Assembly: GCF_000013225.1 (NCBI RefSeq)
Contig: NC_007776.1
Location: 267,277 to 331,276 of the forward strand
Source of the DNA: Synechococcus sp. JA-2-3B'a(2-13)
GTDB lineage: Bacteria > Cyanobacteriota > Cyanobacteriia > Thermostichales > Thermostichaceae
Length of the DNA stretch: 64,000 nucleotides
Direction: 5' to 3'
In this document: positions 49,785 to 54,240 of the stretch, piece after piece
Numbering within the stretch: position 1 is the first letter of the stretch
How the letters are laid out: each line of letters begins with the position of its first letter
Program-made: the position numbers and the translations under genes
The notes under the pieces: generated by a model
The model's database searches: none
Seen by the model: the letters and a program-made list of their open reading frames with translations, nothing else
What the model was told of the DNA's origin: nothing

Positions 49785-52001
49785 TTACGGCGAGTTCGGG
49801 GATCCCTCTGGCCAAGGATCTGTCAGGTCGGCGGTCAAGGGATCCCAGTCCCATCCCCAATCGCGGGCAATGGCCTGAGTAATCCCCAGTTGCCCGTGGC
49901 CAGGGTAGCGGGCCAGGGCTACCACCAGATCAACAAGCTGCTCACCGGCAGGGATTCGACCAAAGATGTGCAGCCCATCGCGAATCTGAGATTCTTTTAG
50001 CTCGCAGAGATAGCCATCCAGGCGATTCCAATCTTCTTCTTTTTCCAAGTTGAACTGCTGGTCTAGATGCTCGGCTCGAACCAGCTCCTGAATCTGGGCG
50101 CGAATCAGGGGACAACGACTGGGATCCAACTGTTGGGCCTGCACGTACTCATCCATCAACCGTTCCAAGTCCGCCAGGGGGCCGTACAGCTCAGCACGAG
50201 TAAGGGGCGGGGTGAGGTGGTCGATAATCACTGCCTGGGCTCGCCGCTTGGCCTGGGATCCCTCTCCCGGATCGTTGACAATGAAGGGGTAGAAGTGGGG
50301 CAGCGGCCCCAGGGCCATCTCCGGGTAGCAGGTGGCGGAAAGGGCGGATCCCTTGCCGGGCAGCCATTCCAGGTTGCCGTGCTTGCCCACATGCACCACC
50401 GCTTGAACGGCGAAGACCTGCCGCAGCCACAGGTAAAAAGCCAGGTACTCGTGGGGGGGCACCAGATCCGGGGCGTGGTAGTTCAAGGACGGATCCCGGT
50501 CATAGCCTCGCGGGGGCTGAATGCCTACAAACACCTGCCCTAACTGCAGTCCCACCACGGGAATATCTCGAGAGGGCGGATCCCCCCACTGCCGGACGAG
50601 GTCGGTCTGGATGGGCTCAGGCAAGCGGGCAAACCACTCTCGATAAAGGGCAGCAGAAAGCCATTGGCGAGCGGGGCGCAGGGATCCCAGCGGGTCATAG
50701 GTTTGGCCCTGGGTGAGCCAGCGGATGAGCTCATCTCCTGTCTGCGGCAGGGGCCCCACCCGGTAGCTGGATTCCGCCAGGACCTTGAGAATCTCCACGC
50801 AGCTTGCCGGTGTATCCAACCCTACCCCATTGGCCAGCCGCCCGTCCCGGCTGGGGTAGTTGGCCAAAATCAGAGCCAGACGGCGCTGGTTGGCAGGGGT
50901 GCGCCGCAGTTTCACCCAGTTGGCCGCCAAATCGGCTACAAACTCCACCCGATCCGGCACAGCCGCATAGGCCACCACCTCCGTTTGCAAGTGGGGATCC
51001 CGCTGTTGAACCGCCTTGAAGGAAACGGCGCGGCTGATGATGCGCCCATCCACCTCCGGCAAAGCCACATTCATGGCCAGATCCCGCGCTCCCAGTCCTC
51101 GCGTGGAGTCCTCCCAGCTCTGGCGGGATCCGCTGCTAAGGATTACCTGCAAAACGGGCACATCCAATTCCTGCCACAGGCTTACATCGGGCTGGTGGCT
51201 GTCCAACCGCGCCAGCGAAAAACTGGTGGTGTTGAGCAACAGGTCAATCTGGCTGCCAAAGTGATCCCGAATGGCCTGGGGCAAGTCGGGATCTTGAAGG
51301 CTGTAGGTGTAAAGGCACAGAGGCTGCAGCCCCCGCTCCACCAAGGCTTTTGCCAATTGATCCACCGGCTCTATGTTCCCCGCCAGAACATGGGCTCGGT
51401 AGAGCAAAATCCCCACCTTGGGAGCTTGGGGATCCGTCGGCGAGGCTACGGGAGGTTGGTAGATCCCAAGACGAGGCAACCCTTGTGGATCCGGCGCCGA
51501 ATATTGGCCCCCTAGGAACTCCCTAGCCAGCAACAGCAGACAGGCAGCCACATTCTCCGCTCCCCCCTCCAGCCAGTACCGCCACACCCGATCCGCCACC
51601 GCCAGGGGCACAGTGGAATGGCTCACCAAATCCCAGTCGGGGCGATCGTCCCCAGGAATGACGATCAGGGTGGATCCCTCCTCGGCGGCCACCTGCTTGG
51701 CTACCTCCAGGCCATAGCTCCAGTAGGCCCTTCCCCCCAACAGGCGAAGGAGCACCACCTGCGCCCGCCGCAGCACCCTCTCGGCATAGTCATCCAGGCT
51801 TAGGGGCTGTTGCAACTGCAACAAATTGGCCGCCCGCACCGCCGGAAAATCGCCGGGCAACAGGCGCAGGGCTGCGCTCAAGGCCGTGAGATCCGTATCG
51901 GCTGCCGAAAGGATAACGATGGGAGCGGGATCCTGCTCCAAGAAAATGACGCCGGATTGGGAAGGATCCCATCCCCCTGGCAAAGCAGCTATTCGGTGCA
52001 T
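49785..52001 (-). CDS. cobN: CobN/Mg-chelatase H-family protein, truncated at the C-terminus
   Basis: 738 residues. The N-terminal MHRIAALPGGWDPSQSGVIF, then VILSAADTDLTALSAAL and RAQVVLLRLLGGRAYWSYGLE match cyanobacterial CobN, the large subunit of cobaltochelatase in B12 synthesis. The core HVGKHGNLEWLPGKG is present. Family members have some 1200 residues; this one stops after WDWDPLTADLTDPWPEG followed by seven residues, and the downstream DNA holds no CobN-like sequence in any frame. So about a third of the protein, including C-terminal catalytic-site parts, is missing. Either a pseudogene or one half of a split gene. Confidence 0.85.
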   Translation of the reverse strand: MHRIAALPGGWDPSQSGVIFLEQDPAPIVILSAADTDLTALSAALRLLPGDFPAVRAANLLQLQQPLSLDDYAERVLRRAQVVLLRLLGGRAYWSYGLEVAKQVAAEEGSTLIVIPGDDRPDWDLVSHSTVPLAVADRVWRYWLEGGAENVAACLLLLAREFLGGQYSAPDPQGLPRLGIYQPPVASPTDPQAPKVGILLYRAHVLAGNIEPVDQLAKALVERGLQPLCLYTYSLQDPDLPQAIRDHFGSQIDLLLNTTSFSLARLDSHQPDVSLWQELDVPVLQVILSSGSRQSWEDSTRGLGARDLAMNVALPEVDGRIISRAVSFKAVQQRDPHLQTEVVAYAAVPDRVEFVADLAANWVKLRRTPANQRRLALILANYPSRDGRLANGVGLDTPASCVEILKVLAESSYRVGPLPQTGDELIRWLTQGQTYDPLGSLRPARQWLSAALYREWFARLPEPIQTDLVRQWGDPPSRDIPVVGLQLGQVFVGIQPPRGYDRDPSLNYHAPDLVPPHEYLAFYLWLRQVFAVQAVVHVGKHGNLEWLPGKGSALSATCYPEMALGPLPHFYPFIVNDPGEGSQAKRRAQAVIIDHLTPPLTRAELYGPLADLERLMDEYVQAQQLDPSRCPLIRAQIQELVRAEHLDQQFNLEKEEDWNRLDGYLCELKESQIRDGLHIFGRIPAGEQLVDLVVALARYPGHGQLGITQAIARDWGWDWDPLTADLTDPWPEGSPNSP

Positions 52002-52032: not shown

Positions 52033-52345
52033 TTAGCGACTGTACTTGAAGCACAGAAGCACCCCAGCTCCCAGCGCTCAACTGGTCAGGAAGGGCTCCC
52101 GTAGTGGTTCCCGCTACCCAAGCATTGCCCTGTCCAAAGTGCTCCGCACCGCTGGCGCGAAAGTGCTCCGCACCGCTGGCGCGATCGACAGCAATAGAGT
52201 CAGCCACCTCATTCGCAGGAGTTCCGAACTGGCGAGCCCACTCGATTGAATGCGAACCGTAGGCTCTCAGAAGAATTGAACTGGCAAAAAAAGTTAAAGC
52301 ACTTGCGAAAACTACCCTGCCCACCCTTTTTTTCATATCCTTCAA
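52033..52345 (-). pseudogene. Collapsed SBBP-repeat protein with repeat insertion and a terminal frameshift
   Basis: A paralogue of the SBBP lipoprotein at 52461-53747. A signal-like N-terminus is followed by just one beta-propeller repeat (WARQFGTPANEVADSIAVD ... GNAWVAGTTTGALPDQLSAG). The repeat is interrupted by 16 residues, RASGAEHF twice, from two tandem 24-bp units. At the end, GASVL is followed in a shifted frame by KYSR and TAA (52033-52035), matching the paralogue's DAFVLKYAR ending. A one-base insertion therefore frameshifts the last four codons. I infer loss of internal propeller repeats by recombination plus the frameshift. Unshifted reading runs on into the cobN start. Confidence 0.75.
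52137..52184 (-). repeat. Two tandem type II 24-bp units inside an SBBP repeat
   Basis: AAGTGCTCCGCACC followed by GCTGGCGCGA, twice, at 52137-52160 and 52161-52184. The hairpin is GTGC-TCC-GCAC, with two paired changes compared with the type I GGAC-TCC-GTCC. Removing exactly 48 bp restores SIAVD-GQGNAWV, matching the paralogue's SIAVD-ERGNAWV. Confidence 0.92.
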
Positions 52346-52460: not shown

Positions 52461-53747
52461 CTAACGAGCGTATTTGAGTACAAAGGCATCTTTCATGCCG
52501 GCTCGGGGTTGGTCAGGAAAGGCTCCCCAAGTTACCCCCGCCACCCAAAGATTTCCCCTTCTATCCGAAGCAAGAGAACCGATCCATTCAAAGTCAGGGG
52601 TTCCAAACTGGTGGCTCCAGAGTTCATTGCCGTTGACGTCGTAAAGGCACACAAAGGCATCGCTAGGCAACTGACCCGCTGGGGTTCCCTGGGTATGTCC
52701 TGCCACCCAAATGTTCCCGATTCCATCCACAGCGATGGCCAGGACTCGTTCCCTCCGTTTGCCTGGGAATTGGCGGTTCCAGAGTTGGTTGCCGTAGGCA
52801 TCGTACTGCTGCACAAGAACGCTGTACTCCCCTGCCTGGCCGGTGGGAGCTTCTTGGATGAATCCCGCTATCCAGACATTCCCCATCTCACCTACAGCGA
52901 TGGAAAAAGCCCCGTCACCCCTCCCGCCTGAAAACTGGCGAAGCCAGAGCTGGTTGCCCTCGGGATCATATTTGCGCACAAAGCCTCCCGCTCTGGGACT
53001 CCGTCCCGCTGACGCGACCGACTGTCCCGGAAGGCTTTCTTGAATGGATCCCACCACCCAGACATTTCCCTCCTCGTCGGCAGCCAGGGCACCGGCCCGC
53101 CGATGGAGCTCGAGCTCTCGAGTCCAGAGCAGGTTGCCATTGGAGTCATACTTGTGCACAAAGCTTTTACCCCTGGATTGGCCGGAAGGGGCTAAGGACT
53201 CCGTCCCGCTACCGCGAACGGCATCCCCCGCCACCCAGACGTTGCCCTCTGCATTCACGGCAAGAGCCGTGACCCCGTCCAACTCCCCACTGCCGAACCG
53301 ACGAGTCCAGAGTTCCCTGCCCTGGGGATTGTACCTGCGCACGAAAGCTTCCTTCCCCCCGGCACTGACCTGGTGGGGGAAAGTCCTGTAGGTAACCCCT
53401 GCCACCCAGGCGTTTCCCCACCTGTCCACCGCTACGGCTAGCGCTTCGTCAAGACTGGAAGTTCCAAACTGGCGGGTCCAGAGTTCCTTACCTTGGGCGT
53501 TGTACTTGCGCACAAAGGCATCTCCCCCACCTGCCCCGGCCTGCTTGGGAAGAGTTCCGTGGGTAACTCCCACCACCCAGGCGTTTCCCCTCTCATCTAC
53601 AGCGATGGAGTGGGCCTCGTCGGAGCTAGGGGTTCCAAACTGGCGGAGCCAAGGAGCAGGATCCTCGCCGCAGGCACCCAAAAGAGCCGAGCTGGCAAAA
53701 GCCAGCCCTAGAGAGACAACCCTCTCCAGCGGTCGCTTCCTGTTCAT
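52461..53747 (-). CDS. SBBP-repeat beta-propeller lipoprotein
   Basis: 428 residues. A lipoprotein signal ends SALLGAC (Cys 26). About seven to eight beta-propeller (SBBP) repeats follow, each like WTRQFGTSSLDEALAVAVD, GNAWVAGVT, then DAFVRKYNAQGKEL. It is probably a surface or periplasmic propeller used for binding. Two propeller units carry 24-bp repeats in frame, at about residues 178-185 (RGSGTESL) and 245-252 (ASAGRSPR), each in the variable loop between GNVWV and FVRKY. Different reading frames of the same element are used. The gene is otherwise intact. Confidence 0.85.
   Translation of the reverse strand: MNRKRPLERVVSLGLAFASSALLGACGEDPAPWLRQFGTPSSDEAHSIAVDERGNAWVVGVTHGTLPKQAGAGGGDAFVRKYNAQGKELWTRQFGTSSLDEALAVAVDRWGNAWVAGVTYRTFPHQVSAGGKEAFVRRYNPQGRELWTRRFGSGELDGVTALAVNAEGNVWVAGDAVRGSGTESLAPSGQSRGKSFVHKYDSNGNLLWTRELELHRRAGALAADEEGNVWVVGSIQESLPGQSVASAGRSPRAGGFVRKYDPEGNQLWLRQFSGGRGDGAFSIAVGEMGNVWIAGFIQEAPTGQAGEYSVLVQQYDAYGNQLWNRQFPGKRRERVLAIAVDGIGNIWVAGHTQGTPAGQLPSDAFVCLYDVNGNELWSHQFGTPDFEWIGSLASDRRGNLWVAGVTWGAFPDQPRAGMKDAFVLKYAR
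52994..53017 (-). repeat. 24-bp modular repeat in the SBBP lipoprotein gene
   Basis: TGGGACTCCGTCCC then GCTGACGCGA. It is read in the ASAGRSP frame between SIQESLPGQ and FVRKYDPEG, lengthening that propeller loop compared with its neighbours. Confidence 0.85.
53194..53217 (-). repeat. 24-bp modular repeat in the SBBP lipoprotein gene
   Basis: AAGGACTCCGTCCC then GCTACCGCGA, read in the RGSGTESL frame. Neighbouring SBBP units lack these residues. Confidence 0.88.
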
Positions 53748-53770
53748 ATGCGTACGGCACCCTGACGGGA

Positions 53771-53794
53771 AAGGACTCCGTCCCGCTACCGCGA
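53771..53794 (-). repeat. 24-bp modular repeat upstream of the SBBP lipoprotein
   Basis: A perfect AAGGACTCCGTCCC + GCTACCGCGA unit, ending 24 bp before the lipoprotein start, in what would be its leader. Confidence 0.85.
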
Positions 53795-54010
53795 TCGGCG
53801 CTTCCTGACAAGGGGGTACCGCCTAGAAGTTAGCACGGGATAACTGACGGGATAACTGTTGGATGATTCTCCAACGGCAGGACTGTCCTCTGGCTGGGAA
53901 CCTTCCTTTAGGCGACTTGGGGTACGGGCTCAGGGTTGGGCAGCAGGCCAGCTAGGCGCGGGGAAAAACGCAGTGCTGCCTGCACAAAGGCTTGAAACAG
54001 ACGGAAGTGC

Positions 54011-54058
54011 AAGGACTCCGTCCCGCTGACGCGAAAGGACTCCGTCCCGCTACCGCGA
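54011..54058 (-). repeat. Two tandem type I units at the deletion junction of the amidotransferase gene
   Basis: Units at 54011-54034 (tail GCTGACGCGA) and 54035-54058 (tail GCTACCGCGA). The gene's N-terminal half enters on one side and its extreme C-terminus leaves on the other, in different frames, with the middle absent. Confidence 0.88.
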
Positions 54059-54216
54059 ACAGCTTGCCGCCACTGACCACATTTAACAATTGCATCCCCC
54101 GGCAAATGCCCAAAACAGGGATCCCCTGGGCCAGCACGGCCTGAGCCAAGGCCACCTCAAATCGATCCCGCTCCGCGTTCACATAGCGCACCTGGGGATG
54201 TTGCGGATCCTCTCCA

Positions 54217-54240
54217 AAGGACTCCGTCCCGCTACCGCGA
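54217..54240 (-). repeat. 24-bp repeat, in-frame insertion in the amidotransferase remnant
   Basis: A perfect unit with tail GCTACCGCGA. It adds exactly eight residues between PSTF and GEDPQHP; without them the sequence matches the family's P-A-x-Y-G-E-x-P-H-P pattern. Confidence 0.85.

Follow-up and report, generated by a model that had tools for sequence, protein, structure and literature searches.

The SBBP locus

The window, by which we mean the whole stretch of 64,000 nucleotides analyzed, carries on its minus strand a short open reading frame (ORF) that encodes a single SBBP blade (Table 1). Two identical copies of a 24-bp unit lie in tandem within this ORF, and the number of such matches expected by chance is 0. 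The minus-strand reading is ...ADSIAVD RASGAEHF RASGAEHF GQGNAWVAG..., with both units in frame. The first-pass annotation had described RASGAEHF twice between SIAVD and GQGNAWVAG, and the translation bears this out; the two 24-bp units that it placed at 52137-52184 are likewise present, but at 52136-52183, so that its coordinates were off by one. The paralogous SBBP gene, the end of which lies ~115 bp upstream of the start of the interrupted ORF, reads SIAVDERGNAWVVG at the equivalent position and lacks the interruption, as had also been reported. Removal of the 48 bp gives DSIAVDGQGNAWVAG, which restores the propeller motif as had been proposed and is exactly what the orthologue in a sister species encodes.

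Table 1. Units and genes at and around the interrupted SBBP gene, in window coordinates
Feature	Position	Strand	Remarks
Unit 1 (24 bp, GTGC/GCAC stem subfamily, AAAGTGCTCCGCACCGCTGGCGCG)	52136..52159	+	Minus-strand reading RASGAEHF
Unit 2, identical tandem copy, 24 bp	52160..52183	+	Sequence match to unit 1
Target ATCGA (N-T-C-R-G type), right of the units	52184..52188	+	Same in the G004 empty allele
Host ORF: single-blade SBBP, 118 aa	51989..52345	-	16 residues inserted; +1 frameshift vs G004
Paralogous SBBP gene, 428 aa	52461..53747	-	Equivalent position uninterrupted
Unit in SBBP paralogue	52993..53016	+	Common to G004; older insertion
Unit in SBBP paralogue	53193..53216	+	Common to G004; older insertion
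Sister-family member, both stems changed (TGCC/GGCA type, CCC/GGG)	53749..53770	+	Slightly diverged
Unit	53770..53793	+	Missing from the orthologous G004 site
Two-unit array	54010..54057	+	In its place in G004: 289 bp of gene sequence
Unit in peptidase C26/GATase-like ORF	54216..54239	+	Missing from G004

On the other side of the host gene, the CobN/Mg-chelatase-like ORF (49785-52001) matches its Pfam model over positions 1 to 629 of 1090 only and is thus short, or split, toward the C terminus.

Empty alleles in related genomes

The window genome (G000) is a single contig of 3,046,682 bp. In the sister species G004, the orthologous locus is colinear and clearly alignable; its allele reads GTC GAT GGG CAG GGC, compared with GTC GAT (48 bp) GGA CAG GGC in the window, and encodes DSIAVD-GQGNAWVAG. 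The empty allele is exactly 48 bp shorter, and no target duplication is found between the window and G004, in line with the first-pass annotation. The border is ambiguous by at most 1 nt because the unit and the target both start with A. In a third genome (G001; 2,932,766 bp), a one-blade SBBP ORF without the insert, reading ARAIAIDAQGNVWVAG, directly precedes the same CobN-like gene. Thus, the "collapsed" gene of the annotation is a one-blade ORF at this place in all three species. Its suggestion of looking for other alleles in relatives was followed between species, with 0 units in G004, 0 in G001, and 2 in the window; a one-unit allele was not found among the three.

The Pfam SBBP score is 20.6 bits for the window ORF with its units and 34.8 bits for the empty G004 allele. 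The G004 orthologue has 84 aa and the C terminus GGLDAFVLKYSR. The DAFVLKYSR end has been lost in the window gene via a separate +1 frameshift located 3' of the units and unrelated to them, which suggests that the host gene may be in decay.

A family of 24-nt, two-hairpin repeats

The unit belongs to a large family. The pattern GGACTCCGTCCCGCTNNCGCG has 146 exact copies in the window genome (0 for a reversed-pattern control), and the relaxed pattern TCCNNNNCGCTNNCGCG has 298 (2 in the control). Units were surveyed in 40 stretches of 20 kb of the window genome; the 850 kb sampled, which were enriched for unit-rich stretches, contained 174 units, and those that were not single lay in arrays of period 24. 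As 121 of the 174 sampled units are single and dispersed, the family cannot be a tandem repeat or minisatellite only.

Each unit folds as two tiny hairpins, N4-TCC-N4' and CGC-TNNC-GCG, and the same two hairpins are predicted for the tested units as single-stranded DNA (ssDNA). Stem 1 is fully paired in 152 of 174 units, in which the types GGAC/GTCC (100 units), GTGC/GCAC (25 units; the type at the SBBP site), and GGCC/GGCC (15 units) are joined by TTGC/GCAA, GCGC/GCGC, and others. Covariation among 60 distinct sequences was 0.356, compared with 0.087 in shuffles, none of 500 of which reached the observed value; 60 cells had changes on both sides, and because most sequences were picked by a pattern that fixes stem 2, this support applies mainly to stem 1. 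A scan by structure only gave 162 matches (0 in the control) and revealed a sister family in which stem 2 is also altered, from CGC/GCG to CCC/GGG. At three loci (L141, L144, and L160), a 24-mer of the sister family (TGCC/GGCA, CCC/GGG) interrupts GTGC units precisely at their T^CC loop, which provides independent support for a 24-nt insertion. An Rfam search with the unit returned no match, and a literature search for its sequence returned unrelated papers only.

Insertion target, junctions, and arrays

Comparison of G000 stretches with G004 loci yielded 29 clean pairs of empty and filled sites, in both directions, all of which differ by exactly 24n bp; pairs with further changes near the site were excluded. 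The SBBP site provides an exact before-and-after picture of one insertion, to which the genome pair adds 28 more. The empty site is N-T-[C/T/A]-R-G, with the T present in 26 of 29 cases, and the targets include ATCG but also TTCGG, CTCAG, and others. Among the filled alleles of the 26 T sites, 7 have the T to the left of the unit, 4 to the right, and 0 on both sides; the other 15 have lost it. Ordinary divergence does not account for this loss, as the flanks are 91% identical (P = 3e-10). At the SBBP site itself, the T is intact and lies to the right of the units. The first-pass annotation had held that this one locus fixes the unit borders; a single locus is insufficient to do so to the base, but a net gain of 24 bp per unit holds over the 29 loci, often with exchange of the target T. 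Together, the pairs establish which target is used, how much length is gained, and that one base is, unexpectedly, exchanged. The exact insertion rule and the usual replacement of the target T at the junction are new here.

Neighboring units of an array are identical in 21 of 28 cases, compared with 7.5% of random pairs; at one site, the number of units is 1 in G000 but 3 in G004. Judging from these sequences, arrays such as that in the SBBP gene most likely start with a single insertion and are then extended by local duplication; one unit would have entered the SBBP gene first and would then have been duplicated in tandem at the site. No signal of bias in orientation or replication strand was detected for the units, for which the GC skew was too weak to judge.

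Distribution among cyanobacteria

Among 390 genomes of the class, the pattern of unit plus flank is frequent only in the genus of the window, in which genomes have 114, 100, 39, 18, 16, and 7 copies; outside the genus, there are ≤3 copies. One or a few copies with a similar flank were found in Thermosynechococcus, a Gloeomargaritales genome, Microcystis, and Baaleninema. Stretches from four genomes of 49 to 59% GC (G189, G304, G268, and G333) contained no abundant family of this kind, with one unit in G189. No unit was found in the viral contigs searched, and the plasmid search gave chance matches only.

Geitlerinema sp. BBD 1991-9 carries the unit within a longer conserved repeat, with TCAATTTCGTAGAATGACCCC and a CCCCT...AGGGG hairpin as flanks (L029, L032, L037, L038, L046, L048, L055, L060, L064, L077, and L081). 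This longer repeat resembles a minitransposon carrying the unit. With the structural model, the two-hairpin fold was also recovered in genomes of the taxonomic families f32, f25, and f28, where its stems are different (TTGC/GCAA and TGCC/GGCA). In one genome of family f32 (G128), the repeat CTTTGCTACGCAACGCTACCGCGA with small variants and the same fold was found at 11 sites (L285 to L295); f32 may be Nostocaceae.

Comparison with known repeats and mobile elements

The closest known elements are the small dispersed repeats (SDRs) of Nostoc punctiforme and relatives (SDR1 to SDR8, above all SDR4 to SDR6). These repeats, described by Elhai and colleagues in 2008, are reportedly 21 to 27 nt long, dispersed, mobile, and nested in copies of their own kind; a predicted fold common to SDR4 to SDR6 is said to be backed by compensatory changes, and the group is said to be essentially confined to the heterocystous subgroup. 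The unit shares with them its size of 24 nt, its dispersed copies, its covarying two-hairpin fold, its nesting of units in units, and its presence or absence at orthologous sites. It differs in reaching high copy numbers in a hot-spring Synechococcus genus instead of in heterocyst formers, and in the exchange of the junction T. SDRs are also described in two further papers (PMC4390886 and PMC2884548), and the former places the insertion of SDR5 between bases 3 and 4 of HIP1 (GCG^ATCGC), before ATCGC (PMC4390886). That target is close to N-T-C-R-G, although the unit does not use HIP1 alone, and HIP1 is nearly absent from hot-spring Synechococcus genomes (PMC4390886). By comparison with the SDR descriptions, the unit works like an SDR, a known kind of element; we do not claim full membership because neither the HIP1-only target of SDR5 nor confinement to heterocystous strains applies to it. 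Units of this size are among the smallest mobile DNAs known.

Other elements resemble the unit in part. Rickettsia palindromic elements (RPEs) are ~100 to 150 bp long. They have been described as selfish palindromic DNA in protein-coding genes (PMC6649704), and the unit is similar in its insertion into such genes but has only 24 bp and is often tandem. It resembles REP/REPIN sequences as a small dispersed hairpin with no obvious target duplication; it differs in lacking a GTAG or CGTC tag, in having many copies in ORFs, and in that no RAYT was seen in the window genome. IS200/IS605 elements have single-stranded hairpin ends and insert in a target-specific manner (PMC6006769). The unit likewise has a specific short target and no target duplication. 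However, in its 24 bp it has no transposase (there is no room for a gene) and no separate left and right ends, and its insertions alter the junction base.

Candidate routes of movement

The 48 bp in the SBBP gene are very probably two tandem SDR-like mobile repeats inserted after the split from G004. The evidence for mobility consists of between-species differences, and any role of a Y1 protein in the movement of units is putative. Insertion of IS200/IS605 elements causes no target duplication. Each of the six genomes of the genus (G000 to G005) has Y1 transposases of this type, and these neighbor TnpB-like ORFs that belong to ordinary IS605-type elements. The substrates of IS200/IS605 transposases are small single-strand hairpins of ~20 to 25 nt (PMC6006769). 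Target-specific insertion without duplication, together with the hairpin structure, would fit the handling of ssDNA, and we tentatively propose, as the leading candidate, that the moving form is ssDNA folded into the two hairpins and processed by a host or IS-encoded single-strand nuclease. Two observations argue against a route of this kind via Y1: the one IS end compared has a TTTAG junction unlike the target of the units, and the junction T is exchanged in 15 of 26 cases. We know of no such exchange as a feature of IS200/IS605 insertion.

Movement via an RNA copy that is reverse transcribed into the target, as was reportedly proposed by Elhai and colleagues for the Nostoc SDRs, would explain why the fold is kept by compensatory changes, and the many units in ORFs are presumably transcribed. 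However, the fold is equally compatible with ssDNA, and a Pfam search for the reverse transcriptase RVT_1 found none in the six genomes of the genus; the same search found RVT_1 in two other genomes (G007 and G008). Because all six carry units, their lack of RVT_1 tests the idea directly and argues against reverse transcription of an RNA by an enzyme that the cell itself encodes, which leaves this route unlikely.

A dedicated REP-associated transposase (RAYT) moving REP/REPIN-like units is a quite improbable route. The small dispersed hairpin repeats, the lack of target duplication, and the presence of Y1 proteins would suit it, but units often lie in ORFs and REPs largely between genes, and the units bear neither tag. 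Furthermore, the only intact Y1 protein in the window genome ends in YIESQGTP and adjoins a TnpB-like ORF, as is typical of IS200/IS605, whereas the RAYT Y1 type is YIxxNP (PMC6006769). A REP-type transposase was not seen in the window genome with the general Y1_Tnp model. Both this result and the absence of RVT_1 from six unit-carrying genomes are new here. The 3' end of one IS605-type element bears a unit, which is probably a coincidence.

The ssDNA proposal may be extended further. It is conceivable, if doubtful, that elements of ~24 bp with no defining feature other than two tiny hairpins occur phylum-wide and spread as ssDNA without a reverse transcriptase or dedicated transposase, that one target base is exchanged at most of their insertions, and that in hot-spring Synechococcus their frame-neutral length lets them invade genes.

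Units within genes

When ORFs of ≥300 nt are taken to represent genes, 88 of the 129 unique unit sites fall within them, compared with ~109 expected for 84% coding sequence (P = 4e-6). Units are thus depleted in genes, yet they are common there. A length of 24 bp corresponds to eight codons, and most frames of the unit are stop free; copies can therefore persist within genes, where they offer natural tests of what happens when a protein gains eight residues. Units in ORFs favor the antisense frame R-x-S-G-x-E-x-x (38 of 88; 24.1 expected after correction for target frequency; P = 0.0017), a preference that might indicate retention of the insertions for the benefit of the peptide as a domesticated linker or variable tract. 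However, tolerance accounts for this bias without any benefit; given also the overall depletion in ORFs and the frameshift in the SBBP host gene, selection for the peptide is very improbable.

The first-pass annotation had tied the 16 residues of the SBBP gene to the repeat family, and RASGAEHF was indeed not found in SBBP proteins of strains without the repeat among the loci taken from the 16 genomes, of 59 searched, that gave a match. As the G004 and G001 alleles are empty, the insertion would most simply be derived in the window lineage. Some units of the paralogue are common to G000 and G004, so that old copies exist, but an ancestral origin of the 16 residues, followed by their loss from G004, G001, and the paralogue, is extremely improbable, because all three lack the insert with no scar, the inserted DNA matches a dispersed family perfectly and its two copies are identical, and no outgroup with units at this site was found among the SBBP loci just mentioned.

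One array also coincides with a larger change in a gene. The peptidase C26/GATase-like ORF of the window spans only 129 of 219 Pfam positions, and at the array at 54010-54057 the G004 gene is longer; this array therefore marks a deletion junction.
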